From Hexactinellida sp. DTS-2022 (taxonomy: Eukaryota > Porifera > Hexactinellida), in NCBI GenBank assembly GCA_028753945.1, contig JAPNXP010000001.1, positions 16,482,501-16,546,500 on the forward strand: 64,000 bases of DNA, read 5' to 3'. The number at the start of each line of letters is the position of its first letter. Position 1 is the stretch's first letter. Positions 2,925 through 29,975 of the stretch are shown piece after piece. The notes beneath the pieces were generated by a model. The model searched no databases. It was not told the DNA's origin and saw nothing but the letters and a program-made list of their open reading frames with translations. A program made the translations under genes and the position numbers.

Positions 2925-5900
2925 GCAAGCTCACACTTTGTATACTTAGTTTATAATAACAGAAGCAAATTTCTTAACTCATAATGATTATTACTAATTT
3001 TATAGGTTGAGATTGGTCTGAATGATAACAGATATATTATAAAACTCGATGTATTTAGAATTTCCGCTTCCAGAATAGGAATAGCATATCTGATATTTTT
3101 AGTAACTATATTTGGTTTGATGTTACTAGCAATCACCTGCGTTATTTCAACTGTGGCTTGTGTGTGTTGCTATGGACTTTTGAAAAATAGGAGGACCAAT
3201 AAGATGGCGAACTACCTCCAATTAGAGATGAACAATGTTGAGAAAGACCTTATCAACAATTGGGTTAAAGGTTTGGTAAAACGATGAGACTAACTAAATT
3301 AATTCTACTTACAATTAAGTGTGTTCATAAAATTTGGTTGAAAATTGGTTAAAAGCAAGTTAATAATTTATTTAGAACTACATGAACGCATAGTACAGAA
3401 TGTCAAATCATTAAATCATTTGAATTCCGAACATAAGCTTATGACCAAACTTAATTGATCAAACTTTAAGTTGTCAGTTAGCATTTGTCTGCAATGACTC
3501 TGAATACCGTATTGCCTCGAACAAGCGCCGGGGAAAGAAAAATGACATTTGTGTTATACAATTAATACCCATTAGTTGATACCTGGAGTATGATTAAATT
3601 TATTTTAGCAACTTCGCAATGTTTACTGTCTCTGAGAACCATTAGAATCCATCTAAATTATATTTCCTGGATTTTTCTAATAAGATTGAGGATAAATTTG
3701 GCCAACGAAAACAAAAGCGCCGGGCGCTTATTCGAAGCAATTAAGTATTTTTTAATATCAACATTTTTGGAACAATAGTTTCAGTATATATAGTCCAGCG
3801 GCATAGCCATAAAATTTCAAAAGATTGTTCATTTTTTTGATAAAAGCACCAAAATTAGTACACATGTACTTTGATGTAGTGCGAACATTTTTGGACATTG
3901 AGGCAATTGAAAGAGTGCTTATATCGGCCATAACAGCTCGCCAAAGTAACCACGTCCGATCAGGGGCGGATCCGGCCTCCCCTGAGATTTTTCTCATGGG
4001 GGCCCCCCTTACCCCCTTACCGTCGCTCGTTTCACTCGCTCCATACCCCTCCAAATTTCCCCCCCCCCCTGAGTCGAAGGGCTGTATCCGCCCCTGCGTC
4101 CGATAGTGTTCGCCGGACATGTTTCCCTTAAAAACTTGTTCAAATTAAGTTATATCGTCTTTTTATTGTTGAATTCGGTTTCCAAGTAAATTTCCGATAA
4201 TTTGATATATCACATGACCATATTTGGAATAATTTTACTTATTACCCAGGTACTTAATAATACAGGTCAACTGTACGTTGAGAAAGATAGGGTTTCTAGG
4301 TTTCACAGAAATGAATGCTGAAGACGAAGTTGATGATGAACTATTCAAAGTAGGAAATGTACCGCTACATGATTTTAAGACTTTCGTGTTGAGAACCCTC
4401 TTCTCAGGGTTACAAGACCATGCAGTATATCATCCTATAGAGGTTAATTATTCTTATAAACAAAGCGAAATTTGTGACCAATTATCTATACATATCCTTT
4501 TAGAAACCAAATAGCTTGGATATAAAAGCATTCAATACTGGTTTGCACGAGTTTGAACAACTTCTATATGATAAACGATTCCTGTTAGCCATGATCCACT
4601 CAATGGAAGATAATCCTAACTTCTCTAATACAGACAAAAGAAACGTGGCTAGTATATTAACTATAGCCCTGTTCAACTCAATGCCATATCTTACAGAAAT
4701 TTTGTTTGAATTGCTGCAAGAACTGATTAATAAGACAATGTCCAAGAAATCTCCTAAACTGCTATTCACAGAGTAGGTGGAATCGTGTAATTATTAACTA
4801 TATTAGGTAATCCGAAGTTATTACTACCGCTTTTGGATAACTTGAGACATTCCGATACGATCATATGTACAGACTAGTATAGACTAGTCACAGCATATAA
4901 TCAACAATGGATTACTTCAAGTCGACAAATGGAGAATTTACCATTATTTCAATAATTAATAATGATATAGCTGAAAAATGTATTATACTTGTAAGTTGTA
5001 ACTAGTAGTATATAGGAATATCATATCAAGGCACCCCTCAGAATTATTATATGTCATCATATGATGACGTTATCATAATTTGGTTCGAATTATCGTGTTT
5101 TATTGCCCACTTTTACATAGTTAATCGCGTTATAAATGTTCAAAATTGGAATATGATTATACCCAGAACAATTGTACATCGAAATTATGTTTGGAATGTT
5201 GACACAATCCTCAGTTTCCCAAATTTTTTAAATTCCTAAATGAGCCATAATCTCAAAAACTATCAATGTTTGTGTAAACTAGGCTAGTACAGATCTATCC
5301 ATAATAAGTAACTTCATATTTATTAATAGTACATTATCTATGCTTAATATAATGAGAATGTTATAAACTAACTAGTATTTCATATAAAGTATTAAACAAA
5401 TTTAGTATTGTACTAAACTCATAGAAAATTAACCATAGCACTTTAGGACTCCATCTGTTGCAGAAAGGCTGCTAACTGGTTGGCTCGCGTTCAATCTATA
5501 CTCACACTTACAGTGTTCACCCAGTGTATCAATATATGAACTGTTTCTGAGGCTCAAACATCACATTATGTCGGGACCTGTTGACGTTTTGAATGGTAAA
5601 GCAACCAATTCTCTATCTGAAGAAAAGCTGCTACAAGAGGAAATACCATACAGAGTCAGTATTTCAGTTTAACTTTATACAGATCAGCCGATACCTTTTC
5701 TAATGTTGTTTTCGGGCACTGGAAAGGCATTTTTTGCAAAGCGTATTTTATATTGAAAAGGTGTTTGCCGATTTTTAAGTAAACTCTTCATTTCTACTAT
5801 TCACTCAGAAGATATTATGCGTATTACAGTAGTTTGTAATTTGATTAGGAACTTGACATCGAGATAGAAGCAACAAAGAACAACAAGATTCCTTGTATAC

Positions 5901-8900
5901 TGTTGGACTGTGACACGATTACACAAGCTAAAATAAAGATAATGGATAAACTGTATCAAGGTACAGGATACTATCAGAGACCTAAGTTATAGGTGAGAGG
6001 TTTTTAATTGTAATACTTCATTATTTTTCGAGTTTGATGTTTGTGATCTTTTCAAGACAGTATATGCATTGCCACTTGTTAAATTTAATTTCTATTATAA
6101 ATACATTTCATATAACGTATATGCACCAAGATTATAAGAATTTATTAAGAGTGTTATACTCGTAAATTGGAATGTTTTATTATTACATTTTCGTATTTCA
6201 TAAAATACATACATTATGATGTTAGATCAGGGTTCCGCAAACTTTCATTTATATCAGGCCACATAATCTTACCAAAATTTTCTCAGGCCGCAAACAATAT
6301 CGAGAAATTTTTCGAAATTTATAACAAAACTATTATGTTGTCTAGACTAGAAGTCTATAACTATACTATAATTTCTAAGCAAAAAGTGCATAAAGGCCAC
6401 ACATGATACAAATTTCCATTGGGCTATCAGGCCCATAGGCGCAAAACCCGTGGGTGCCCTGGGTGCCAGGGCACCCACGACAGAATTTTTTGATATTTTT
6501 AGTTAAAAAATATAATTTCTTAACACATTTAATCGATAAATTTTAATGTCACAGAATAGAAATCATCACTTCGACCTTTTCTCATTCCTTTCAACAGCTG
6601 CCTCATGTCTTCTCTTCAACCTGACCACTGCTTCGGGTACCCACGACAGTTCGGGTACCCACGACAGTTGCGCTGAACATGAAAAAATTGCGCCAATGAT
6701 CAGGCCACACATAAGGTTGTTTCAGGCCGCATGCGGCCTGAAAAACCTAGTTTGCGGAACCCTGTGTTAGATAGTCAAAATAGCAGTCTGTTATGACTAC
6801 ATGAAAGGTTCTTGCATGAAAGGTTATTATTAAAAATAACTTGTATCCTGGTTTAGGATGTAGACTTGATGCTGAGGTTAGAAGGTAGAGGTAGACAGCT
6901 GCTGAGAGATAATGATATGACGAATGAAGAAGTTGGAGAATGGCGTAAAATTAACACACTATCTCATTACAAGATACAGAGTGGGATGTTGTTTGTTGTG
7001 GTACCTAGGAAGCCAAAGCCAAACCTTGGACAGGTATGGGACTACCCGGGGACTGCAATTTACGACTTTAGGGATGCTCAAAGGTAATTAAAGATTTGAG
7101 CACATTTATGTCGTTTATAGTAACAATTTATATCCTAAACAGTGGAAACACAATTTATGATATTTTTGGAGAAAATTAAGAATTGTTATATTCAACCGAA
7201 ATGATCGGACAATTTTGGAACTACAAATACATTTATCAATTTATTTGCTCATTAAGAATAAAAAAATTTCGGGGTTATGCCTTCCTAAACATTTCCTATT
7301 TACGAAAGATTTATTTGATAAAAACACGTTTATCGTTAAAAAAAAAAATATACAACTAATTGGAACATATCTATTATTGGCAAAATATTTGCCTGTAAAC
7401 TTCGTTGTACTACTTCAGATGGAATATATTTTTACGAACCCTTCGGTATCGGTCGCTTGGCGAAGGATAACTCAACGCGATTCAATTTTTGCATGATTCA
7501 ATAATGCATCACAAAAATTAATATTCATACATAAAATTCCCGATTCATATTATAATTTTGAAAATAATGAATTTTTAATTAATGTACTGTATTTACTCGA
7601 ATAGTAGCCCAGGCGATTATTAATTTTTAGCCTCCCCCGTCTAGGGAGTTGATTATTCGAAATGACAACAATAAATATTCATATTAGTTATTTGTAAATG
7701 CGATATTCGCAGTCAGCTTACTTGTTTACCTATAAATTAAAATAACATTTGGAAGTTAGTCTCTATCTGAAATATAGATATGTTCTGTTTCTTTTCCCTT
7801 ATCTCTTTAATCCAACCGAACAAAATAATATAGATACGTATCTACATTTTTCAATTATCCGAATGATTTAACCTTTCCGAACTAAATTAGAATTATAGGA
7901 GGATTAAACCCACCTCAATTTCCGCTTCCAAATTTTCTAAAGGAGAGCACTCCTGTAACCACTCAGCATATTCCTTTTAATGAGCATTTTTTTAATTTCA
8001 AAAAATATTCGGTGGCTTTCGCAATTCGCTTAATACCAATTATTCTAATTTATAATAGAAATAATATTGCTTAATTAATTAAGAACAAGTTGTTATCCGT
8101 CCCCATGCAAAATAATAATTATATTCCTCAAATAACTAGGTTGTCAATTAGCAAACAATTTTTCACAAGATGCGACTCGCTATCGCGTAATACCACTGAA
8201 AATCTATTCATGCACAAAATTTCTCGTAATTTAATGCGATGAGTCTCATAGGGATTCGGAATTAGATAAAATCTATATAATTAAATCTCGATTGTTGTTG
8301 TTTGTTTGTTTGTTTGTGTGTTTGTCCGGATTGTATTAAAGTTATGGGGGAATAGAAACCCCATTTATTATTGAGATAGAGACTAAGTTCCAAATGTTAT
8401 AGTAGGTAAACAAGTATGCTGAACACGAATTTCGTATTTATAAATTATAATATGAATATTTATTGTTGTTGTTTACAAAAATAGGTAAACAAATTAATGA
8501 AAATTCAAAAATTCAAAAGTTTAAACTATGGAAAATGGTAGAAAGGGTTGTATATAACATCCACTACCATTTTCCATGGTAGCAACTAGCAAGGGTGAGG
8601 AGGAAGGTCGCATAGTGGCCGTTAACTTGATGTGCGTAGCACCGATCCGTCGCAAAGCGACCGAGACCGAAGGGTTCGTATTGAATAAAATAGATCGAAT
8701 TTGAATGGTTGAATTACATCATTATTGAAACGATTTTTTTAAGATTTTATAACTTATTAAGAATACCGCATAAGAATATAATTGTTTCAACAGTGCTTCT
8801 CAATTGGTTACCCTACACGATACACAGATGAACAAAGTATATCATCTGCAAAATTCTGAGCAGAGTGGAGACAATTTGAAACTGAAGAAGAGAGCAACTA

Positions 8901-11900
8901 GGAAGAGAAATTTAAGAACTGAAGTATTCCTACCTAGGCTACTTGTTACTAAGGTACGCTAGCATGTAATAATGGTATAGATATAATGCATGTTATTCTT
9001 ATAGGCCGCGTTACAGAAATATGTCGATCAGTTGATGGAAGAAATATTCCCCATCACAAGTGTACATCTTATTTTCGACAATGCCAACCAGATCCCAAGA
9101 GCAATTAAGTTGTTGTTCGACTTCTTTGATGAGCAGAGAACAGTGTATAGCATTGAAGATCCTGATGTAGTGCATACTTGGAAAAGTAACAGGTAAATCA
9201 GAATTATTTCTGGATTTTGGAGTCAAATATTAATAATAATAATAAGTATAAGTTTGACTTCTCAGCTTGATAATCTAAAATTATTCGTATATTTTATGCT
9301 CCGGTTAATTCAAAAATTCATATTTAATAACTTCTGTTAACTTATTGAACAGATTATAGCAGTGTGTGGTCATGTGGTTGATAATTAACTCTCTGATAGT
9401 GTTATTCTGAGGTTCTGGGTAAATATACTAAAGAATCCTGATTTCCTATTGGACATCGCTAAAGGCGCTACGGTTGATGCAGCACTATCAGTGATTACAC
9501 AGGTATTAGGTTGGGACGAGTGGCGGCGCCAGGATTTTTAATCAGGGGGGGCTCTGGGTGGGCAGGGAGATTTCAGGGGGGGAACAATTAATAAATATTT
9601 TTAATGCTCCATTACAAGAAAAAACTATAAAGTTTAAGAAATCCATCAAATTTATAGTAATAAAGGAGCTACAGCAGAAAAGGGAATTGTCGATTGGTAC
9701 GGCATTTATGAATACTTAAAAATTTCATAACTAGAATAAATAAAAATTATTTGCCATTTTTTATTGAATTATATTACTTAGATAGTGAATTAGTGATTAC
9801 GAAATGAAACAAATAAATTCCAATTACTATGTATATGCTTTCATTTTTCAAATATTCATTCTAATTCAAAGGTACAGGGACAACATAAATGTAATTTCTA
9901 TAATACAACCTCGTACAGAGGTTGTAATATCCTTATGAGGGTGATATTCTATTGCAGCTCCGGGAGCGGCTCAGAGGGGGGCTCACCCGAAAATAGGGGG
10001 GGGGGGGCTCGAGCCCCCCCTTGCCCCCCCATAGCGCTGCCACTGGTTGGGACTTGGAACTTAATATATAGTTCGTTGGCTAGAGCATTAGGAACGTAGT
10101 ATTATCGTCTTCTGTTTGTAGGCTGTGATAGATAGCTGCTCTCCAGAGCAATACATCACGAAAGTGAGTTACTAACTGGATTCTAAATTCTAATTTATTA
10201 TTTTTTATAACATAATAATGAATAATTTGTATGGCAATTGAATTTATACCAGTAATTTGAAAAGGTTTTTGTAATATTTATAACTTGATTTATCGAGTCA
10301 TTGCTCACCAAGTCGATATTCCTTCTAATCAGGTTTCACATCTCTATAGGTGCATCTAATTTTAGAATACTTATTTATATATGTGTTGATATTTATATTA
10401 AACGAGCCCTTCGATCTCGGTTGCTTAACGACGGATCGGTGCTACGCACCTCAAGTTAACAGCCGCTGTGCGGCCTTACTCTCACCCTTTCTAGTATCTA
10501 CAATGAAAATTGGTAGAAAGGGACGTTATATACATCCCTCTATAATATTTCCATAATTTTAACTTGTTTTTCATATTCTAAATTTATAAAAGTGAAATTA
10601 GTGCTCAGCATACTTGTTTACCTATAATATTCGTTGAAAGCAAACTTCTAGGTTGATTTTGAATTTTCATTAATTTGTTACCTATTTGTGTAAACAACAA
10701 CAACAAATACTTCATATAGAAATTTTTAAACGCGAAATTCGAAATCAGCATACTACTTGTTTACCTATTATAACTTTGGAACATGGTCTGTCTCAATTAT
10801 CAATGCGGTTTCTATTCCCCCATCACTTTAATACAATCCTGACAAACAAACACACAAACACACACACAACAATCGAGATTTAATAATATAGATATAGTTT
10901 AAAGGCGAGTTTATAGTTTGGGAGAACTCTCTACACAATAGCTTTTATCATTTAATCAAATTTTACTATAAGGCCATATTAAATAAATAATTTTGTTTAT
11001 CATCGCTGTCCGTCCCAAACTTTACCCTCCCTCCGTCCGGATATATTTAATAGTTATCTTGATAACATAATCGTCCAAATATTAGTTATAAATTTGTGTA
11101 AAATACTCTTAATGTATCAATTTTTCATAAGTCTTGTATTTTAGAGCATTATATAATTATTTAAGGATTGTCATGGGATTTTATAATTAGATTAAATATT
11201 TATATTTATTGTTTGGCATAGGATAATGTTATCTTCATATTAATGGTATAAAAAAATAAAAATAAAATCCAGTCCACCGTCCGTATTTTCTGAAAAATCC
11301 GGATGAGAAACAATTTATTTATTTACCAGGCCTAATCATTTCCAATATATTCCATTCACATCGCCGTTTATTCGACTTGCTTCAGTTTTTATTAATTGCA
11401 TTTATCCATATAGGCTAGTCCAACAAACAAGTTGCTATACTACAAACAAGTACAAATTTACAAATCTCGAGTGTATAAGTAAGAATACATTTAGGATTAT
11501 TTATTGTTGTTATTAGTCATTTTTATGAATTTAAATATTCATAGTCGCATTCATTTTACAAATATAAATGGTATTCTACTCACATGACTTCTGCATAGAT
11601 ACTATGAGGAAATCAGGCATGCTCCCACAGTGCATATGAATAGCATTACATTCCCATTTAATGTAATTCAAGCTAGGGTACGTATCTAAAGCTTGATTAT
11701 AACACTGTATGAACAAATTCATATTCGCATGCTATTTTTCTAGGGACACGATTGCATGTTCCATGTAGATAGTGCTGTTTATGGACTATTTAGTTATGCT
11801 CAGTCCTATGAAGAAGAGGTAGGTATGGAATAGTATATGGATATTATCAGAGCATTAAAGGAGCTCTATTTATGAATGAGGAGCTCTTATAGCTCGGGAT

Positions 11901-12152
11901 ATTATAGACATAAATGCTGCGAAAATCTCTATTGAAAATAAATTGTTACACACTTGTTATTTAGTATTTAAACTAGGAGTGCCAATTTACTCTTAATTTA
12001 TATGCTTTGAATTTGAAGAAATCTAAGTTTCCGTTTGTTATTTCCAGGATTCACTCTAATTATAATTGCTTTAGATTCGAAACAGACTTGATATAGAAAA
12101 CCTGGAGCTGCAGAAAGAAATATTCTGTGAAGTTTGTTTGGCAATGACATAA
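1005..12152 (+). CDS. PLXN: Plexin, 3' part of gene (20 exons, PSI to end of RasGAP)
   Basis: Plexins are semaphorin receptors whose cytoplasmic RasGAP domain, split by a Rho-binding domain, controls adhesion and cell guidance. I placed these exons by splice sites, phase and family similarity: 1005-1177, 1523-1659, 1734-1993, 2107-2384, 2447-2692, 2763-2924, 3006-3275, 4266-4442, 4504-4772, 5447-5654, 5849-5992, 6857-7083, 8794-8953, 9005-9192, 9400-9502, 10122-10163, 11414-11478, 11599-11677, 11744-11818, 12075-12152 (TAA stop). Phases match at every junction. Order: PSI, IPT repeats, one membrane helix, GAP part 1, RBD, GAP part 2. Exon 1005 starts in phase 1, so an upstream exon (sema domain) lies outside the window. 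One intron (2925-3005) is GC-AG. The exon ending at 5992 closes with an in-frame TAG, so this copy may be non-functional or use another donor. Introns carry at least five mobile elements. The family call is very secure. Confidence 0.93.
3006..3275 (+). CDS. PLXN: Plexin transmembrane exon
   Basis: This exon starts phase 0 at VEIGLNDNRY and encodes a single hydrophobic helix (IGIAYLIFLVTIFGLMLLA and following, about 28 residues) ending in CCYGLLKNRRTNK, a basic stop-transfer stretch. A juxtamembrane acidic/amphipathic segment (LEMNNVEKDLINNW) follows, as in plexins, where it forms a helix before the GAP domain. I prefer the donor at 3276 (GTAAAA) because it keeps phase 0 into exon 4266. Confidence 0.88.
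3505..3741. mobile_element. TA-type MITE (TACCGTATTTCCCC family) in plexin intron
   Basis: A diverged copy of the family also seen at 42038, 45454, 47650 and 58904: one end TACCGTATTGCCTCGAAC, the other containing GCGCCGGGCGCTTATTCG. The inner sequence about TTGAT and ATGACATTT is shared between copies. No coding potential. Confidence 0.5.
3961..4096. mobile_element. hAT-type MITE, 136 bp, in plexin intron
   Basis: Terminal inverted repeats CAGGGGCGGATCC / GTATCCGCCCCTG, with an exact 8-bp target duplication CGTCCGAT at 3953-3960 and 4097-4104. The same family lies at 43941-44094. Confidence 0.9.
4266..5654 (+). CDS. PLXN: Plexin cytoplasmic GAP domain, first half (exons 4266-4442, 4504-4772, 5447-5654)
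   Basis: Exon 4266-4442 encodes VPLHDFKTFVLRTLF, matching the plexin segment before the GAP core. Exon 4504-4772 contains NFSNTDKRNVASILTIAL, the signature block of the first GAP half, followed by LLQELINKT. It ends phase 2 at a GTAGGT donor, just before what would otherwise be a stop. Exon 5447-5654 resumes with TPSVAERLLTGWLAF and includes SGPVDVLNGKATNSLSEEKL, the conserved linker into the Rho-binding domain. The intron between 4772 and 5447 holds part of a foldback-family repeat. Confidence 0.9.
4905..5290. repeat. Partial copy of the foldback element seen at 33121-34617
   Basis: The stretch around ATGTCATCATATGATGACG and GTTATAAATGTTCAAAATTGG closely resembles 33490-33940, the arm of the large palindrome. 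It lies in the plexin intron 4773-5446. The open frame here is not a gene. Confidence 0.6.
5849..7083 (+). CDS. PLXN: Plexin Rho-GTPase-binding domain exons (5849-5992, 6857-7083), with in-frame TAG
   Basis: Exon 5849-5992 encodes the ubiquitin-like RBD start with LLDCDTITQAKIKIMDKLY, close to the plexin consensus. Exon 6857-7083 continues DVDLMLRLEG and WRKINTLSHYKIQSG. Aligned with family members, the junction is residue-perfect, but the last codon of the first exon (5990-5992) is TAG, followed at once by a good donor (GTGAGA). An alternative donor at 5961 (GTACAG) paired with an acceptor ending at 6863 keeps frame and skips the stop, at the cost of about 12 conserved residues. Exon 6857-7083 ends phase 2. 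Confidence 0.82.
6228..6764. mobile_element. hAT-type MITE with a nested insertion, in plexin intron
   Basis: Terminal repeats CAGGGTTCCGCAAACT and AGTTTGCGGAACCCTG-like, with 8-bp target duplication TGTTAGAT at 6220-6227 and 6765-6772. The central part (about 6430-6690) holds extra sequence with repeats of GGGTACCCACGACAG, absent from the 265-bp sibling at 61370-61634, so another insertion has landed inside. Confidence 0.88.
7588..7670. repeat. Truncated TA-type MITE end
   Basis: TGTATTTACTCGAATAGTAG followed by CCAGGCGATTATTAA matches the ends of the elements at 22585-22846 and 47275-47466. The other terminus is not visible. The rest of intron 7084-8271 is AT-rich with nothing I can assign. 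Confidence 0.45.
8272..8678 (+). mobile_element. Helitron-like element, short copy
   Basis: Starts A|TCTATATAATTAAATCTCG, runs through (TTTG)n and a single tandem unit, and ends with the hairpin tail CGAGACCGAAGGGTTCG|T. It lies in a plexin intron. Confidence 0.75.
8794..12152 (+). CDS. PLXN: Plexin GAP domain second half, to the C terminus
   Basis: Nine small exons rebuild the conserved block. 8794-8953 has KVYHLQNSEQ and VFLPRLLVTK. 9005-9192 has ALQKYVDQLMEEIF and HTWKSN. 9400-9502 has LRFWVNILKNPDFLLDIAKG. 10122-10163 has AVIDSCSPEQYITK, 11414-11478 ASPTNKLLYYKQVQIYKSRV, 11599-11677 YYEEIRHAPTV, 11744-11818 FSYAQSYEEE. 12075-12152 is the final helix (RLDIENLELQKEI) and TAA. All phases agree. 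The catalytic second arginine is in the LRFWVN region (residue order L-R-F-W). The exons downstream of the TAG look well conserved, arguing against long-standing pseudogenisation. Confidence 0.9.
9518..10045. mobile_element. hAT-type element, 528 bp, in plexin intron
   Basis: Ends GAGTGGCGGCGCCAGG and GCGCTGCCACTG, with exact 8-bp duplication GTTGGGAC at 9510-9517 and 10046-10053. G- and C-runs lie near both ends. Related short copy at 29976-30123. Confidence 0.88.
10403..10892 (-). mobile_element. Helitron-like element, reverse copy
   Basis: Reads in reverse: 5' end at 10892 (A|TCTATATTATTAAATCTCG), CA/TG-rich stretch, two tandem units, then the tail ending CTCG|T at 10403. It lies in the plexin intron 10164-11413; the remainder of that intron (10900-11400) is AT-rich without recognisable features. 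Confidence 0.78.
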
Positions 12153-12810: not shown

Positions 12811-13665
12811 TCAGGTAAAAAAAGATGCAACATATTGGCTCAGCTCTAAATCGGGAGAAAAGTATGATTTTGATTTATGGAATGAATAAGCATACTATAA
12901 ATATAAATATATCCCTAGCGTCCCGAAGACAAACACCTCGATATTTTATTCTATTCACAACTGAAGGGGAACTAATAACTACGTACCTAAACCAGGATAA
13001 CATTAAGTTTCATACACAGGTGTCTATTCATTTTGCTTCAGACTGTATTATAATCCTATCATCCGAAGACTATCAATTTAATCATATTTACATGTATAGT
13101 GACTATGTGAGTAGTGTTACCAAGATAGAGGGTAGACTCTTTGATTGTCACAAGGGTGGAGACATTTATATAACTGACCTTCTACTTAATTCTATATCAA
13201 TTTATTCATCCGATGTTAATTCACTATTTTTTCAAACTTGCTACATCAAATACTGATTCTGGATCTATTGTTGGATTATCAATTGAGGATGATGTTCTGT
13301 TAGTTAGCATGAAGTTCTGCATGGAATTTACTATTGGAAAAAGTATTGAATGTACGTAGGCTACACAGATACTGCTTGAGAACTGGAGAGTTACTACAAA
13401 TTATTATTTTGAAAGATCGATTGAGTTTTACAGAGATTGAAGATATATGGGACACTAGTGGGTTTACAAATGTTATTGTGGACTGTGACAAATCAAGAGA
13501 GTTTTGCATGTGTAGTAAAGATGGGAAAATCTGCTATTCTGGATTGAAAAATTAGAATTTCGATATTAAAATACTCGAGGACACCATTAGTTGCTCTCTT
13601 ACAGATGCATTTCAATTGATTTGTGTTTCAGATACTAGTGAAATTTTGAAAATATGTACATAGCA
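12811..13665 (+). pseudogene. Broken copy of the beta-propeller-like gene
   Basis: Nearly identical to the intact gene at 24314-25264 but lacking its first ~32 codons. It carries a 1-base deletion near 13219, a 4-base insertion near 13352 that restores frame, and an in-frame TAG (AAA AAT TAG) near 13552. Upstream sequence 12640-12810 matches 23100-23217 of the second segment, so about 1.2 kb including the start codon is missing here relative to that copy. Only residues of the first half (HIGSALNREKS to ISIYSSDV) remain as one long open frame. Confidence 0.85.
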
Positions 13666-14330: not shown

Positions 14331-15884
14331 TCAAATCTTCCCAAATACAAAAGAAGAGACAAACAAAATGATGCCAAACAACAACACAGTGATATACCGC
14401 ATGAAAAGAACAATCTTTTTATTATCACACTTTCTTGTTGGAAGTCTGTGAGTATCTGATATTGTCAGTAATATTGGGACAGGAATTGAGTTCTCTGTGC
14501 TAGTATTTGCTGCAACTTTCTTTGTAATATATTCCCAATTGTAGAAGTACAGTAGTAAGAGCTGAGAAATACTGGAAGCCATTAGACCGGTGGCTAGAAA
14601 GAGAAAATATCCTGACGCTTTCCAAGATATATAAAAGGAAAACAAACATCCAAGTGGGACTGTTAAGAGACACCAAATGAACTGCAGAGTTGTTGCATAC
14701 AACTGAAGGCAACAGGCATTACAAATGCCTCTAGATACTAGACACAAATCAGACAAAATGCATACACTGATAATCTTTAAACCGAATTCTATTAGTACCC
14801 TCATTTCTTCAATAGACGTGAAGACATAGGAAAGCCAGTTAGCACAACCGAATGTGATTATCCCAAATATACTGATTATGGAAACCATATAGCATATGCT
14901 TACAACAGCGGCTTTCTTAGCCTGTGTCAAATTATTCTCTCCAAGAAGGTTCCCGATTCTGACCAGGGCTCCCATTCCATATCCATATGAAGCTGCAGAA
15001 AATAGAGTCCAAACAATGTTTAGAATCCCCAACATCGCAAATTGTTTTGTATCTCCCAAAATAAATCCGATGAATACAACTGGAATAATTCTGGCATTGA
15101 TAATATCTACAAAGAACTGTCCAATGCAAGAAATTCCATACTTCAAGAAATGGTACCAGTCAGTTAAGAATTCAAATGACCAATCATTGTAGTTCCTAAT
15201 ATGCACCTCTGTCATTCGAACATACATGTATAAGAGAAAAGCAATCATGTATGTGCTAATTATATAGGACAGAGCAACACCTGTTATCTCCAAGGGAATT
15301 ACAACTACCAACAACCACTGTAGAAATACGTTTAAGCAATTTCCCAATATCACAATTACTAGAATTGGGTACACGATGTTCTGTGACTGTAGAAATCCGT
15401 TAGTCAGCTTGTAGAGGATATACGCTGGATATCCAAAGCAGAATATCGTTGTGTATTGCCCTGCTCCTTCTGCTAACAGAATATCGCCTGATAGGTAGTG
15501 TACGAGAGGCCTAACATTAATCAAGAGACTCCATAAAGGGAAACAGGTGAGAGATGCTATGAATAATGCCCTTGTGTAGTACATGCCGACTAGTTTGTGG
15601 TTCTTAGCCCCGTATGCTTGCGAACAGAGTGTGTTCATACCAGTTGCTATTCCCTGCATCATCACAAAAGCTGTGAAATATATTATCGCCTGCCCGAGAT
15701 ACAGAGAACTGACTTTCTCGCTCATCTCTTCACCTGATGTTCTTGAGATGAAGATTGTACCCATTTTGGATTGAATAGCATCACAAAAGAAACTAGATGC
15801 CCCTACTACAGCTAGCTTGTTTAAGTACTTGAGCTCTTCTATAATCCAATATGTTCTTTTTAAAACATTATATGAGATGTACAT
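14331..15884 (-). CDS. SLC47: MATE-family multidrug/toxin extrusion transporter, copy 1
   Basis: Intronless, 517 residues, close to the usual 500-570 of eukaryotic MATE proteins. These proteins export organic cations in exchange for H+ or Na+ at the plasma or vesicle membrane. Family marks are GMNTLCSQAYGAKN near residue 82, the SLC47-type CSQAYGA motif, and ALVRIGNLLGENNLTQAKKA in the second half, matching the repeat-related VRVGN...A..AK motif. About 12 hydrophobic segments are visible, the last near the C terminus. ATG at 15884 reads MYISYNVLKRTYW. It is convergent with the propeller pseudogene and divergent from the TRAF-like gene at 16714. It differs from the copy at 27748-29304 at about 25 positions. 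No lesion seen. Confidence 0.92.
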   Translation of the reverse strand: MYISYNVLKRTYWIIEELKYLNKLAVVGASSFFCDAIQSKMGTIFISRTSGEEMSEKVSSLYLGQAIIYFTAFVMMQGIATGMNTLCSQAYGAKNHKLVGMYYTRALFIASLTCFPLWSLLINVRPLVHYLSGDILLAEGAGQYTTIFCFGYPAYILYKLTNGFLQSQNIVYPILVIVILGNCLNVFLQWLLVVVIPLEITGVALSYIISTYMIAFLLYMYVRMTEVHIRNYNDWSFEFLTDWYHFLKYGISCIGQFFVDIINARIIPVVFIGFILGDTKQFAMLGILNIVWTLFSAASYGYGMGALVRIGNLLGENNLTQAKKAAVVSICYMVSIISIFGIITFGCANWLSYVFTSIEEMRVLIEFGLKIISVCILSDLCLVSRGICNACCLQLYATTLQFIWCLLTVPLGCLFSFYISWKASGYFLFLATGLMASSISQLLLLYFYNWEYITKKVAANTSTENSIPVPILLTISDTHRLPTRKCDNKKIVLFMRYITVLLFGIILFVSSFVFGKI

Positions 15885-16403
15885 AATCGATCGAAACTAT
15901 AAGGTTAGATGTACGTACTTAATACGTAGATTGTTAATTTATAGCTAAATGAATATACTCTTAAAGTACATCTTTTCATAACAAGGCGATCACTGCACGA
16001 CCTTGTGTTGGGCTTCTCTATTTATCAGGAATTAATTATATTAATTATGTCATACCACTTTTCTTGTTCAATCATGCTGTAGTAAAGGGGCAATAGCTCG
16101 TATCAGCATGACCCAAGACAATGGGCTTGACGACCCAATCATAGACTTAATATTTTTCAATTTTCAGAAAGCTTGGTGTCCGAAGTAGATGGTGGATCCG
16201 AACGAGGTCGAAATTATTGTAGGCTGCGTCTGTTCCCATATTCTAAATCTCTATAGTAGCATTATACCGATGTTATCGCTTAGGGGCGGTTGATGAAGCC
16301 TGCTTGTATTGCAGATTCAGCAAATACAGTACATTAAATTATCATTGACTAGACAGTGACAATCTTCCAGACCATCGCAGATTATTGGTCTGAGGTTATC
16401 CGG
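15885..16403. other. Intergenic region shared with the second segment
   Basis: 15897-16400 is closely similar to 29305-29815, the matching region beyond the second MATE gene. It includes an acceptor-like ..TTTTCAG followed by AAAGCTTGGTGTCCGAAG, conserved in both copies, which could be a small exon or a MATE upstream element. No ORF in it is convincing. Confidence 0.4.
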
Positions 16404-16443: not shown

Positions 16444-16713
16444 ATCCGGAACCCCAAAAATAGGTACTTTTCCGCATATACACCCTATACCTGAGGTATT
16501 ATTTCACTTTGAATTCCCATGAGAGTCCCAAATTCTGAATATATTAACACAAAGTTATAACAATGAAGGACAAGTATGAGACTGATAAATCTTTTGGAAT
16601 AATGCGGGAAGCATCTCTTTGCGAGGGAGAAACAACTTGCTTGTTGTAGCCAAACTCCAGACAAGTTGAATGCTGTAAATATTGAACAGAATTCTGTACC
16701 AGTGTGATATAAA

Positions 16714-17689
16714 ATGTCCAATTCTGAGAAGCTGCAAATAGGAAGGGAAACTTTCAGAAGCAGAAAAGCAGATATGGAAGTTTGTGATAACTTTCTAATG
16801 AAATGTGCTGAGTGTAAACAGATATTTACCCGGAGAGAAGAACACTACCATAAAAGTGAGATATGCCAAATGCGGAAAATCATTTGCAAACACGGGTGTG
16901 GAAAATCCGGTTATGCCAAAGATTTAGAAAAACATGAAAAGTGTTGCATAAAGATCCCTATTTTATGTCCGAATTGTTGTGAGATGGAATTTCCTCAAGA
17001 AGACTCCTATGCACACAGGAATGTGTGTGAGTTAGAGGAGATCACGTGTACTTATGCTAAATACGGCTGTAAAGCTAATCCAATGCTAAAAAGAGACAAA
17101 CTTGCTCACAAGAAGGATAACATAGTGGAACATACAGACTTCAGCTTAAAAAGAATAGAAAAAACTTGAAACTAGAAAAAATGTTGAATGGACAATGAAA
17201 CAGTTGGACGGAGTTGAGTGGGAATTCCAATATAAAGATATTCCACGATATGAGCAGATGGAGGGTCCTACTTTCTATGTTAACAACTACAAACTGAAAC
17301 TCTGGGTTTCCTTTCTGGGGTTCTTGGTTTCTTATGACAAAATAATACGCTTTCGTATTAAGAAGATAGAAGGAGAGTTCGACAAACAATTGGGAATAGC
17401 TGCCATTACTCACTACAGAGTTATTATTGTAGACAAACAGAACCATAGCAAGTCTCATTATGCAGATGGACCATTGAATTATCAGCTTAAGATCGGTGGA
17501 AATAGCCAAGTATTTTGTTGCATAGACTGTGTTACCTATAGGAGATACTCAACAGCTGATAACTGTATATCAGTTAGATTCTATTTTGATATCAATAGTC
17601 AACTACCTCTTGTTCCAATACAAAAAATACAGGTCATACGATCAGAATCAGCAGATATTTATCCATTTGCTCCTAATTTTTCATTTTGA
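16714..17689 (+). pseudogene. TRAF-type zinc-finger and MATH-like protein, one frameshift
   Basis: TRAF-like proteins are adaptors with cysteine/histidine zinc fingers and a C-terminal MATH fold. ATG at 16714 begins a 151-residue part with repeated zinc-finger patterns (CAECKQIF...H..SEIC, CKHGCGKSGYAKDLEKHEKCC, CPNCCEMEF...H...C, CTYAKYGC). It stops at TGA (17167-17169). A second frame from about 17170 to 17689 continues MKQLDGVEWE, GPTFYVNNYKLKL, ITHYRVIIVDKQN, a MATH-like beta domain. The frames differ by one base in an A-run near 17158-17163; removing one A gives a continuous protein of about 324 residues. A sequencing or assembly error in the homopolymer is as likely as a real mutation. 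The sister copy at 21690 supports the joined reading. Confidence 0.8.
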
Positions 17690-18590: not shown

Positions 18591-18910
18591 CATTTGATGC
18601 ACGTATAGAAGTGTTCCGCAACCTTTTTGATTCTCGAGGCCAATTTTCTATAGCCCACAGCTGTGCCGGCCACAAAAAAATCGCAAGAATTCCCTAGTGT
18701 ATCACTTATTTGGTGGTTTATGTAGTAGTATAGTATACTAAATTTTTATTGTTCAAAATGGTGGATAACCCTAATTAACAAATTACGTGTATAATATAAT
18801 GATAGTTTTTTAATTAAATGTCAACGCCCAAATTAGTAGACTAGGCTCTGAATAGTAACGAAATATCTATATTATTAAATCTCGATTGTTGTTTGTGTGT
18901 GTGTTTGTCC

Positions 18911-19976
18911 CATAGACTCCTTAAGTAAAGGACTGGAACGTCGCGATCTCGGGGGTTTTAACTTGAGTCTGAGAGGCTCCAATTATAAAAATTGATAAAG
19001 CATTAAGTTTCCGCTCTCCAAATGTGATTTTTTGCATATAGGGGTAACTTTTGGCACCCGTCAACGATTTGAGGTTTTCACTCAAAATTTCTCACACCTC
19101 GACAAGTTATGACGTCATTGTCACATTTCGAGAACCCTGAAAAGTCACTTAATCGCACATAATTCGCGCCCTCTAAGAGATAAAAATCTGAAAATTTAAT
19201 AGAACATGTACATTAACGATGCGGACACTTTGGTAACACCAGATTGCCACTATGCTTACTCATTATCACATGATGACGTAATCACTAAAATTTCACATTT
19301 TTAAATTTGACTTTTAGGCCTATTTACGCTTTATAATCAATGTTAGAAGTGTATAAACCATACACCAACCGCAAAGCGGATGGTATGTGGTTGAGTTCTT
19401 CCGCAAAGCACGCTAGTATCTATATAGATTGATTCTACAGTATATCTATATATACTAGTGCGCTTGGCTTGCTAGGTCGCTTTGCGGCAGAACCCAACCA
19501 CATACCAACCGATTTGCGGTTGGTGTATGGTTTATACACTTCTATCAGATTATAAAGCGTAAATAGGCCTAAATAGTCAAATTTAAAAATGTGAAATTTT
19601 AGTGATGACGTAATCATGTGATAATGAGTTAGCATATCGGTAATCTGGTGTGACCAAAGTGTCCGCATCATTAATGTGCATGTTCTATTAAATTTTCAGA
19701 TTTTTATCTCTTAGAGTGCGCGAATTATGTGCGATTAAGTGACTTTTCAGGGTTCTCGAAATGTGACAATGACGTCATAACTTGTCGAGGTGTGAGAAAT
19801 TTTGAGTGAAAACTTCAAATTGTTGACGGGTGCCAAAAGTTATTCCTATATGCCAAAAATCACATTTGGAGACCGGAAACTTAATGCTTTATCAATTTTT
19901 ATAATTGGAGCCTCTCAGACTCAAGTTAAAACCCCCGAGATCGCGACGTTCCAGTCCTTTACTTGAGGAGTCTATG
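18911..19976. mobile_element. Foldback element, ~1.07-kb palindrome, 8-bp target duplication
   Basis: Two ~500-bp arms, nearly perfect inverted copies, begin CATAGACTCCTTAAGTAAAG and end with its complement. The centre (about 19425-19450) is AT-rich. GTTTGTCC precedes (18903-18910) and follows (19977-19984). Eight-bp duplication suggests hAT-type mobilisation. Transcripts across it would form a long hairpin RNA. Confidence 0.88.
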
Positions 19977-20972
19977 GTTTGTCCGGATTATATTAAAGTG
20001 ATGGGGGAATAGAAACCGCAATTAATATTGGGATATAATCTAACTTTCAAATGTTATGATAGGTAAACAATTGTTATAATAGGTAAACAAGTATGCTGAA
20101 CACGAATTTCGCGTTTATAAATTTCTCATATGAATATTTGTTGTTGTTGTTTACACAAAATAGGTAAACAAATTAATGAAAATTCAAAATCAACCTAGAA
20201 GTTAGCTTCCAACGGATATTATAGGTAAACAAGTATGCTGAAGACGATTTTCGCGGTTATATTTTTCTAATATGAATATTTGTTGTTGTTGTTTACACAA
20301 AATAGGCAAACAAATTAATGAAAATTCAAAATCAACTTAGAAGTTAGCTTTCAACGGGTATTATAGGTAAACAAGTATGCTGAACACGATTTTCGCGTTT
20401 AAAAATTTATAATATGAATATTTGTTGTTGTTGCTTACACAAAATAGGTAAACAAATTAATGAAAATTCAAAATCAACCTAGAAGTTAGTTTTCAACGGG
20501 TATTATAGGTAAACAAGTATGCTGAACACGATTTTCGCGGTTAAAATTTTCTAATATGAATATTTGTTGTTGTTGTTTACACAAAATAGGTAAACAAATT
20601 AATTAAAATTCAAAATCAACCTAGAAGTTAGCTTTCAACGGGTATTGTAGGTAAACAAGTATGCTGAACACGAATTTTGCGTTTAAATTTTCTAATATGA
20701 ATATTTGTTGTTGTTGTTGTTGTTTACTCAAAATAGCTAAACAATTTAATGAAAATTCAAAATCAACCTAGAAGTTAACTTTCAATAGGTATTATAAGTA
20801 AACAAGTGTGCTGAACACGAATTTCGCATTTATAAAATTCTAATATGAGTCTTTGTTGTTGTTGTTGTTGTTTACACAAATAGGTAAACAAATTAATCAA
20901 AATCAAAATCATAACGTCCCTATCTACCATTTCCATGGTAGAAAATGTGAGGAGTAAGGCCGCTCAGCGGCG

Positions 20973-21689: not shown

Positions 21690-22435
21690 TGAAGGAAAGT
21701 CATATGTAAGCGACCAAAGTCTGCGCATGAGAATGAAACCGTTCTTGCGGAATTCGGAATTCTTTCGGAAGTTCTAGAGATACATTATGAGGTTTGTCCT
21801 CTTTACCCAATCGATTGTCCGAATGGTTGTGGATTGAAGTTTCATAGGAATACATTGGCTAGTCACAGGAGTGAGTGTGAGTTGAGATGTCCCTTCATTG
21901 AGTATGGCTGTGAGGCTAATGCTATGTTAAGGAAGGATCTCCAAACACAAGAAGGAATTCTATATAGAGCATTTGGATATAAGCCAGAATAGGATTATAA
22001 AACTCGAATGGAAATTGAGGACAATGAAACAACTTGATGGAGTAGAATGGGAAGCAAAAAAGCATGAAAAACAACCTAAAGAAGGCCCTACTTTCTATGT
22101 TAACAAATATAAACTAAAAATATACAGCTTCGAAATTTCCCGTATAAATACGATATGCATATTTATCAAGAGGATAAATGGGGAGTTCGACAAACAATTG
22201 AGAAAAGCTGCCATTACTCACTACAGAGTTATTATAGTAGACAAACAGAACTATAGCAAGTCTCATTATGCAGAGGGACAATGAATTATTAGCTTAAGAT
22301 TGGTGAATATAGCGAGGAATTCTATCGTATAGATTATGGCCCTGGGTAAGATACTTAACAGCTGATAAATGATAACTTATTAGTTAGATTCTATTTTGAT
22401 ACCAATACTCAACCACCTCTTACCGAAATTGAAAA
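21690..22435 (+). pseudogene. Degraded TRAF-like/MATH copy
   Basis: Zinc-finger part CPNGCGLKFHRNTL...SHRSECE and CPFIEYGCEANAML at about 21805-21930 is followed by a 1-base frameshift near 21945, an open frame 21973-22284 (MKQLDGVEWE, GPTFYVNKYKLK, ITHYRVIIVDKQN) and a further 1-base deletion near 22280. The rest stays recognisable to about 22430. It is clearly a relative of 16714-17689, with more lesions and no intact start. Confidence 0.8.
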
Positions 22436-24218: not shown

Positions 24219-24313
24219 TGTATGACTATAGTATGAATCAATGCATTTATTTATTGTAGGGAATTATATTTGAATATTTGAATATCTAATTAGCCTTGCT
24301 GATATATATGCAA

Positions 24314-25264
24314 ATGTCTACAAAGAGGAAACGTAAGAGAGATTCAGATTCTGACTTCAACTCATCTTTCCCAGAAAATTACTACTCCCCCGTAGCTCCG
24401 CCTATAGTGATCAGGTCAAAAAAGATACAACATATTGGCTCAGCTCTAAATCGGGAGAAAAGTATGATTTTGATTTATGGAATGAATAAGCATACTATAA
24501 ATAGAAATATATCCCTAGCGTCCCGAAGACAAACACCTCGATATTTTATTCTATTCACAACTGAAGGGGAACTAATAACTACGTACCTAAACCAGGATAA
24601 TATTAAGTTTCATACACAGGTGTCTATTCATTTTGCTTCAGACTGTATTATAATCCTATCATCCGAAGACGATCAATTTAATCATATTTACATGTATAGT
24701 GACTATGTGAGTAGTGTTACCAAGATAGAGGGTAGACTCTTTGATTGTCACAAGGGTGGAGACATTTATATAACTGACCTTCTACTTAATTCTATATCAG
24801 TATATTCATCCGATGTTGAATTCAAGTATTTTTTCAAACTTACTACATCAAATACTGATTCTGGATCTATTGTTGGATTATCAATTGAGGATGATGTTCT
24901 GTTAGTTGGCATGAAGTTCTGCGAGGAATTTACTATTGGAAAAAGTATTGAATGTAGGCTACACAGATACTGCTTGAGAACTGGAGAGTTACTACAAATT
25001 ATTATTTTGAGAGATCCATTGAGTTTTACAAAGATTGACGATGTATGGGACACCGATGTGTTTACAAATGTTATTTTGGATTGTGACAAATCAAGAGGGT
25101 TTTGCGTGTGTAGTAAAGATGGGAGAATCTGCTATTCTGGATTTAAACATACGATTTTCGATATTAAAATACACGAGGACACCATTAGTTGCTTTCTTAC
25201 AGATGCATTTCAATTGATTTGTGTTTCGGATAGTGGAATTTTGAAAATACAGAGCATCTTGTAA
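24314..25264 (+). CDS. Beta-propeller-like protein, intact copy
   Basis: A 316-residue intronless ORF. I chose the ATG at 24314 (MSTKRKRKRDSDSD) because the paralogue at 26243 starts at the same place; an in-frame ATG also lies at 24308. The N terminus is a basic/acidic stretch, possibly a nuclear signal. The rest is a series of short hydrophobic beta-strand blocks spaced about 45 residues apart (FILFTTEGELITTYL, VSIHFASDCIIILSS, DIYITDLLLNSISVYSSD, RYCLRTGELLQIII, GFCVCSKDGRICYSG, FQLICVSDSGILKIQSI), the look of a six-bladed NHL/WD-type propeller. I do not recognise the family and no catalytic motif is evident. It lies tail-to-tail with the MATE gene beyond the paralogue. Confidence 0.75.
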   Translation: MSTKRKRKRDSDSDFNSSFPENYYSPVAPPIVIRSKKIQHIGSALNREKSMILIYGMNKHTINRNISLASRRQTPRYFILFTTEGELITTYLNQDNIKFHTQVSIHFASDCIIILSSEDDQFNHIYMYSDYVSSVTKIEGRLFDCHKGGDIYITDLLLNSISVYSSDVEFKYFFKLTTSNTDSGSIVGLSIEDDVLLVGMKFCEEFTIGKSIECRLHRYCLRTGELLQIIILRDPLSFTKIDDVWDTDVFTNVILDCDKSRGFCVCSKDGRICYSGFKHTIFDIKIHEDTISCFLTDAFQLICVSDSGILKIQSIL

Positions 25265-27747: not shown

Positions 27748-29304
27748 CTAACAAATCTGCCCAAACACAAAAGAAGAGACAAACAAAATGATGCCAAACA
27801 ACAACACAGTGATATACCGCATGAAAAGAACAATCTTTTTATTATCACACTTTCTTGTTGGAAGTCTGTGAGTATCTGATATTGTCAGTAATATTGGGAC
27901 AGGAATTGAGTTCTCTGTGCTAGTATTTGCTGCAACTTTCTTTGTAATATATTCCCAATTGTAGAAGTACAGTAGTAAGAGCTGAGAAATACTGGAGGCC
28001 ATTATACCGATGGATAGAAAGAGAAAATATCCTGACGCTTTCCAAGATATATAAAAGGAAAACAAACATCCAAGTGGAACTGTTAAGAGACACCAAATGA
28101 ACGGCAGAGTTGTTGCATACAACTGAAGGCAACAGGCATTACAAATGCCTCTAGATACTAGACACAAATCAGACAAAATGCATACACTGATAATCTTTAA
28201 ACCGAATTCTATTAGTACCCTCATTTCTTCAACAGACGTGAAGACATAGGAAAGCCAGTTAGCACAACCGAATGTGATTATTCCAAAGATACTGAGTATG
28301 AAAACCATATAGCATATGCTTACAACAGCGGCTTTCTTAGCCTGTGACAAATTATTTTCTCCAAGAAGGTTCCCGATTCGGACCAGGGCTCCCATTCCAT
28401 ATCCATATGAAGCTGCAGAAAATAGAGTCCAAACTATATTTAGAATCCCCAATATCGCAAATTGCTTTGTATCTCCCAGAATAAATCCGATGAATACTAT
28501 TGGAATAATTCTGGCATTAAAAATATCGCCAAAAAACTGTCCAATGCAAGAAATTCCATACTTCAAGAAATGGTACCAGTCAGTTAAGAATTCAAATGAC
28601 CAATCATTGTAGTTCCTAATATGCACCTCTGTCATTCGAACATACATGTATAAGAGAAGAGCAATCATGTATGTGCTAATTGTATAGGACAGAGCAACAC
28701 CTGTTATCTCCAAGGGAATTACAACTACCAACAACCACTGTAGAAAGACGTTTAAGCAATTTCCCATTATCACAATTACTAGAATTGGGTACACGATGTT
28801 CTGTGACTGTAGAAATCCGTTAGTCAGCTTGTAGTAGATATACGCTGGATATCCAAAGCAGAATATCGTTGTATATTGCCCTGCTCCTTCTGCTATCAGA
28901 ATATCGGCTGATAGGTAGTGTACGAGAGGCCTAACATTAATCAAGAGACTCCATAAAGGGAAACAGGTGAGAGATGCTATGAACAATGCCCTTGTGTAGT
29001 ACATACCGACTAGTTTGTGGTTCTTAGCCCCGTATGCTTGTGAACAGAGTGTGTTCATACCAGTTGCAATTCCTTGCATCATCACATAAGCTGTGAAATA
29101 TATTATCGTCTGCCCGAGATACAGAGAACTGACTTTCTCGCTCATCTCTTCACCTGATGTTCTTGAGATGAAAATTGTACCCATTTTGGATTGAATAGCA
29201 TCACAAAAGAAACTAGATGCCCCTACTACAGCTAGCTTGTTTAAGTACTTGAGTTCTTCTATAATCCAATATGTTCTTTTTACTAAATTATATAGATTGT
29301 ACAT
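27748..29304 (-). CDS. SLC47: MATE-family multidrug/toxin extrusion transporter, copy 2
   Basis: 518 residues, intronless, about 95% identical to the copy at 14331-15884, with ATG at the same place (MYNLYNLVKRTYW). It keeps CSQAYGA and VRIGNLLGENN and every hydrophobic segment. Differences cluster at the first ten residues and are conservative elsewhere (I/V, L/M, A/S), consistent with purifying selection on both copies. The stop is one codon later (..GQIC). Both paralogues are probably functional exporters; substrate cannot be told from sequence. Downstream it is convergent with the propeller paralogue. Confidence 0.92.
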   Translation of the reverse strand: MYNLYNLVKRTYWIIEELKYLNKLAVVGASSFFCDAIQSKMGTIFISRTSGEEMSEKVSSLYLGQTIIYFTAYVMMQGIATGMNTLCSQAYGAKNHKLVGMYYTRALFIASLTCFPLWSLLINVRPLVHYLSADILIAEGAGQYTTIFCFGYPAYIYYKLTNGFLQSQNIVYPILVIVIMGNCLNVFLQWLLVVVIPLEITGVALSYTISTYMIALLLYMYVRMTEVHIRNYNDWSFEFLTDWYHFLKYGISCIGQFFGDIFNARIIPIVFIGFILGDTKQFAILGILNIVWTLFSAASYGYGMGALVRIGNLLGENNLSQAKKAAVVSICYMVFILSIFGIITFGCANWLSYVFTSVEEMRVLIEFGLKIISVCILSDLCLVSRGICNACCLQLYATTLPFIWCLLTVPLGCLFSFYISWKASGYFLFLSIGIMASSISQLLLLYFYNWEYITKKVAANTSTENSIPVPILLTISDTHRLPTRKCDNKKIVLFMRYITVLLFGIILFVSSFVFGQIC

Positions 29305-29975
29305 AATCGATCGAAACTATAAGGTTAGCTGTACGTACATAATACGTTTTATTTATAGCTAAATTAATATACTCATAAAGTACATCTTTTTCATAACAAG
29401 ACGATCACTGCTCGACCTTTGTGGTTGGGCTTCTCTATTTATCAGGAATTAATTATATTAGTTATGTCATACCATTTTTAATTCGATGATGCCTTAGTAT
29501 TGGGGCAGCAGCTCGCATGAGCATGACCCAAGACAATAGGCGTGATCATCCAATCATAGGCGTAATATTTTCTACTTTTTCAGAAAGCCTGGTGTCCGAA
29601 GTAGATGGTGAATCCGAACGAAGTCGAAATTATTGTAGGCTGCGTCTGTTCCGAAATTCTACATCTCTATAGTAGCATTATAACAATGTTAGCGCGCTTA
29701 GGGTCGGATGATGAAGCCTGTTGTATTGCAGATTCAGCAAATACAGTACATTATAATAACATTCAACTGGATAGTGACAATCTACCAGACCCCTGCAGGT
29801 TCTTGACCTGAGGGAATCCGGATCCCAGAATAGGTACTTTTACGCCTATGCACCCAATACCTGAGGTATTATTCCGCTTTGAATTCCCATGGGAGTCCCA
29901 AATTTTGAATAATTAACAGTTATAACAGTTAAGGGCGCGTATGAGACTGACAAATCTAAAAAAGATGTAGTACAC

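Follow-up and report, generated by a model that had tools for sequence, protein, structure and literature searches.

A plexin gene of the glass sponge Hexactinellida sp. DTS-2022, lying in the 64,000-nt stretch of DNA analysed here (the window; contig C1, 16482501-16546500), carries an in-frame TAG at 5990-5992, which translation places as the last codon of a 144-nt exon (5849-5992). Judging from sequence comparison, we favour with moderate confidence a recent nonsense change, segregating or lately fixed, which would have hit an exon-end codon, probably Glu before, of a glass-sponge plexin duplicate. A fresh nonsense allele or an assembly error had been proposed in a preliminary description of this DNA and fits best: the codon differs from that of the closest paralogue in the same genome (locus L010), and the rest of the gene model is intact. 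Read as a nonsense allele, the finding is ordinary, sharing with other nonsense alleles and young pseudogenes one disabling change, an otherwise intact gene and a close paralogue.

Gene model and position of the stop

The exon reads ELDIEIEATKNNKIPCILLDCDTITQAKIKIMDKLYQGTGYYQRPKL up to the stop, and its peptide ends in YYQRPKL before the TAG, the preliminary description having given RPKL and then TAG. Directly 3' of the TAG lies the donor GTGAGAGG, and the next exon (6857-7083) begins GATGTAGACTTG, i.e. DVDL, in phase 0; both the good GTGAGA donor and the in-phase resumption described earlier were confirmed. Using L010 as a guide, 14 exons were modelled, covering the gene from its last extracellular segment onwards (Table 1). 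This cytoplasmic model comprises 682 codons and 13 introns, all GT-AG and with matching phases, has the TAG as its sole internal stop, and ends with a natural TAA at 12150-12152. The later coding exons are intact and in phase, as had been claimed, but the model contains nine of them after the stop, not ten. A search of the 112.4-Mb assembly with the TAG site returned one match, the site itself; mitochondrial COX1 had no match in this assembly.

Several matches identify the gene as a plexin, of type A-like kind. The plexin cytoplasmic RasGAP domain (PF08337) was found at the window locus by four of 23 exon-wise genome matches, all above the cut-off, and with an X put at the stop the protein matches Plexin-A1 in the PDB (E 2.6e-111). 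The Sema/PSI/IPT ectodomain was detected as colinear tblastn pieces in the window and an upstream locus (L015), against residues 1-1264 of a plexin of Oopsacas minuta (P0195). The two loci together, matched as pieces rather than as exon models, are colinear with P0195 between residue 1 and the transmembrane helix, and the window gene continues colinear into its C-terminal part. We read a seeming stop codon within the Sema region, at L015 3702-3704, as the end of a 75-nt GT-AG intron (L015 3630-3704), a length that fits an insertion relative to Oopsacas.

Table 1. Features of the plexin gene in the window
Feature	Positions	Strand	Remark
Exon W1	3006..3270	+	last extracellular residues, transmembrane helix, cytoplasmic start; matches Oopsacas P0195
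Exon W2	4300..4442	+	juxtamembrane/GAP start; exon model
Exon W3	4504..4772	+	GAP, first half; ends LLFT-E vs family LLLRR, Arg-finger pair replaced
Exon W4	5447..5654	+	GAP, first half; exon model
Exon W5	5849..5992	+	first part of the Rho-binding-domain insert; length 144 nt, phase 0 at both ends; exon model
Cryptic donor GTACAG	5961..5966	+	in-frame bypass with acceptor before 6864, minus 13 codons including the stop
In-frame TAG	5990..5992	+	L010 codon GAG; Oopsacas P0195 residue Glu
Donor GTGAGAG	5993..5999	+	L010 identical over 7 nt
Exon W6	6857..7083	+	Rho-binding-domain insert, second part; resumes DVDL; exon model
Exon W7	8794..8953	+	exon model
Exon W8	9005..9192	+	GAP, second half; exon model
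Exon W9	9400..9502	+	LRFWVNILKN; second Arg and Asn pair of Rap interface kept; exon model
Exon W10	10122..10163	+	L010 without intron before it; exon model
Exon W11	11414..11478	+	SPTNKLLY activation segment kept; exon model
Exon W12	11599..11677	+	exon model
Exon W13	11744..11818	+	exon model
Exon W14	12075..12152	+	ends in natural stop TAA; exon model

Other features of the window were also recorded. Near the plexin exons, stretches rich in A and T that contain GTTGTTGTT runs and a common core recur, by eye, at 1-720, 8390-8530 and 10580-10800, and are probably mobile elements. Two similar transporter ORFs of 521/522 aa (14331-15896 and 27748-29316, both on the minus strand), which we take to be of the MATE type, apparently belong to a larger duplication; by eye, it also repeats the ORFs 12819-13555 (broken) and 24290-25264, and 16708-17689 and 21693-22284. 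A long foldback element at ∼18900-19980, likewise seen by eye, has two inverted arms of roughly 500 nt each.

Relatives, constraint and the arginine finger

The genome contains further plexin loci, four on contig C15 (L010, L011, L012 and L013) and one partial copy on C1 (L014, G000:C1:13149500-13158500). The latter is an L010-type plexin represented by two pieces of the cytoplasmic domain, both from its first half; the alignment of one piece contains an in-frame stop, and the copy is probably a decayed duplicate. In L010, the exon corresponding to W5 has the same phase and ends CCCAAGCTGGAG followed by GTGAGAG, where the window gene has CCTAAGTTATAG followed by the same seven bases; the L010 codon at the stop position is GAG. 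The Oopsacas protein reads RPKLEDVEVE at that place, i.e. it has Glu. Homologues were taken as the 120 of 176 and 120 of 188 matches listed, among which one Oopsacas plexin (P0195) is named; the stop column holds Asp in 56 and Glu in 29 of the 120 homologues listed. Twelve of the 13 modelled introns are common to the window gene and L010, and the window gene alone, compared with L010 and P0195, has a premature TAG and Thr-Glu in place of the Arg-Arg finger.

L010 and the Oopsacas protein share 75.8% identity (592 positions), and the window gene shares 57.8% with either of them (585 positions). Two trees place the window gene as an outer or unresolved branch, with a tip of 0.51-0.52 changes per column against 0.15-0.18 for the other two tips (in the first tree 0.18 for L010 and 0.15 for Oopsacas, which there share a further 0.16). 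In the first tree, L010 and Oopsacas are grouped (support 92/92, not starred); in the second, the fork is drawn open, and pairing the window gene with L010 gave an AU p of 0.043. That the duplication would be older than the split from Oopsacas is thus only weakly settled. The paralogues lie on different contigs, and their third-position GC is 71% in L010 and 38% in the window copy.

Conservation is similar on the two sides of the stop. Identity to L010 is 146/255 (57.3%) before and 193/326 (59.2%) after it, and most differences on either side fall in third codon positions (131/84/224 at positions 1/2/3 in 341 codons before, 100/68/216 in 330 codons after). Across the 14 modelled exons (2046 coding nt) and 13 introns, a single disabling site was found, the rest of the frame and the splice sites being intact, as expected of a young pseudogene or nonsense allele. 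Counting 2046 coding nt and 52 splice-site bases, and assuming a transition bias and an indel rate, we estimated 213-408 disabling hits per unit neutral divergence, the range coming from these assumptions; at such assumed rates, the probability of seeing no second hit falls below 5% beyond 0.7-1.4% neutral divergence, whereas the tip branch of the window gene amounts to about 0.5 changes per column. Considering GAG or Glu in the relatives, the intact rest, the equal conservation and the lack of a second hit, the TAG appears to be recent, erroneous or bypassed. The idea that the gene is decayed throughout was unsupported, departures at conserved columns being similar in the window gene and its relatives: of 88 columns with at least 95% conservation among 239 homologues, 13 differ in the window gene, 13 in L010 and 10 in Oopsacas, including 2/13, 2/13 and 1/10 gaps at cut edges, respectively.

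In plexins, an arginine pair normally provides the catalytic residues. The family motif LLLRR is LLFTE in the window gene (4768-4772 with 5447), i.e. Thr and Glu stand in place of the Arg finger (R711 in zebrafish PlexinC1) and the Arg next to it. These two columns hold Arg in 112 and 110 of the 120 homologues listed (gaps in 4 and 5, other residues in 4 and 5), and are 97.9% Arg in the 233 filled rows of a larger homologue set. Passages of PMC3787391 describe Arg711 as the finger of zebrafish PlexinC1, report an R1407/1408A mutant as the negative control in a cell-collapse assay, and assign catalysis or Rap contact to Arg1001, Asn1005, Asn1009, Gln1032, Pro1050, Asn1052 and Lys1053. All seven of the latter are the same in the window gene, and all lie beyond the TAG. 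Two other contacts, P611 and K666, are not kept, being Ser and Thr in the window gene, and Pro and Arg in L010 and Oopsacas. Constraint on the gene therefore seems to have persisted despite the absent finger pair, which points to a non-catalytic, possibly Rap-binding plexin. The finger was presumably lost before the stop arose.

On the nonsense reading, mRNA of the TAG allele would be spliced at the normal donor and translation would stop inside the Rho-binding insert. The message would then be degraded, or a membrane receptor would be made with 342 codons of the modelled 3' part, the last 338 codons, including the second half of the GAP fold, being lost. Such a loss may be tolerable because there are at least five plexin loci, a close paralogue exists and the Arg-finger pair is already missing.

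Alternative explanations

A bypass of the stop or a base error would predict an intact frame after the TAG just as well. Bypass, which we regard as unlikely, would join donor 5961 to acceptor 6864 at the cost of 13 codons, or skip W5 altogether, which would keep the frame since this exon runs from phase 0 to phase 0; in both cases a receptor would still be made, in agreement with the conservation downstream of the stop. The matrix used to score splice sites was built from 24 donors and 24 acceptors found in the window gene and L010, the intron in question being left out. Among the in-frame, stop-free pairs scored, 5961/6864 was best (6.36 + 3.71, against 6.20 + 5.79 for the annotated pair), its donor exceeding six and its acceptor two of the 24 training sites. 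An alternative of equal or better total score is, however, offered by 5/24 other introns, a comparison in which the control introns are the training set and so are partly scored by themselves. The donors of those five pairs are weaker than 5961 (0.0-4.4) and lean on a strong true acceptor, and only one of the best alternative pairs in the 24 other introns has a stronger donor. The total score of the pair is therefore unremarkable, although its cryptic donor, taken singly, is good. The 5961/6864 junction suggested in the preliminary description is thus formally possible, with a donor (6.4) matching the true one (6.2), but has a weaker acceptor (3.7 vs 5.8); moreover, L010 lacks the GT at 5961 and keeps the normal donor, and the RPKLE residues to be removed are kept in the Oopsacas protein. 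Another candidate donor, at 5986 (GTTATA), was rejected with a score of -0.41.

A base-call or assembly error at 5990 would equally account for a lone change in a gene model that is intact everywhere else, and the site being present in one copy only means that there is no second haplotype to compare; no haplotig or further copy carrying a sense codon was found in the 112.4-Mb assembly. Against this, the assembly has 18 contigs for 112.4 Mb, which suggests long reads, and the nearest homopolymer longer than 2 nt is the TTTTT at 6001-6005. We consider such an error decidedly unlikely.

A more speculative combination, to which we give little credence, is that the gene encodes a finger-less, non-catalytic, Rap-binding receptor in which splicing around the exon-end stop would toggle the product between full length and a truncated decoy, yielding two receptor forms from one gene. 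Selection for the truncation as such, the stop yielding a plexin with a shortened cytoplasmic part (a decoy or co-receptor), seems quite improbable. The missing Arg-finger pair would agree with it, as would Amphimedon queenslandica, for which PMC6374515 reports six plexins, four with truncated intracellular parts. However, the stop lies deep in the GAP/RBD rather than at a short tail, and the exons and splice sites beyond it have remained intact, so the short form cannot long have been the sole product.

Restoration of the full protein by RNA editing (UAG to UIG, read as Trp), stop readthrough or a suppressor tRNA is hardly credible, the intact downstream frame being the only point in its favour. 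Folding of the RNA from 5849-6150 is unexceptional (z -0.56, with 26/100 shuffles folding as well), no arm of the 25 of 41 inverted repeats listed covers 5990, and Trp is outside the ten commonest residues of the mostly acidic stop column in the 120 homologues listed. The RNA-level correction raised in the preliminary description thus found no support from the fold or from those inverted repeats. ARAGORN, run with bacterial settings, found no tRNA genes in the window. Reassignment of TAG as a sense codon was rejected, since TAG terminates other genes here: it ends three of the 11 window ORFs looked at (TGA five, TAA three), including an SLCO-like gene (56842-58812, minus strand; best named matches in Oopsacas minuta at 69% identity, unnamed ENA proteins up to 79%), where it lies near the family C terminus, at most 11 alignment columns from where 19 relatives end, the codon after it being TGA.

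Truncated plexins in sponges

A search of the literature on plexin with Hexactinellida, and on the arginine finger or plexin GAP, found no print record of the window plexin among the matches listed, and the main text of the Oopsacas genome paper (PMC10280926) contains neither "plexin" nor "semaphorin". The nonsense reading resembles the Amphimedon case, as reported in PMC6374515, in that both concern sponge plexins without a full GAP domain. It differs in that the Amphimedon intracellular parts are reported there as short and without conserved domains, whereas intact coding exons follow the stop here. With that precedent, a truncated sponge plexin would be no new kind of thing.

If the stop is spliced around, truncation of this gene would be regulated, in a family for which Amphimedon already provides truncated members. 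If the nonsense reading that we favour is true, the gene would show a decay route of a semaphorin-receptor duplicate in an animal lineage without neurons: the catalytic arginines gone, a truncating stop added, presumably in that order, and the rest intact.
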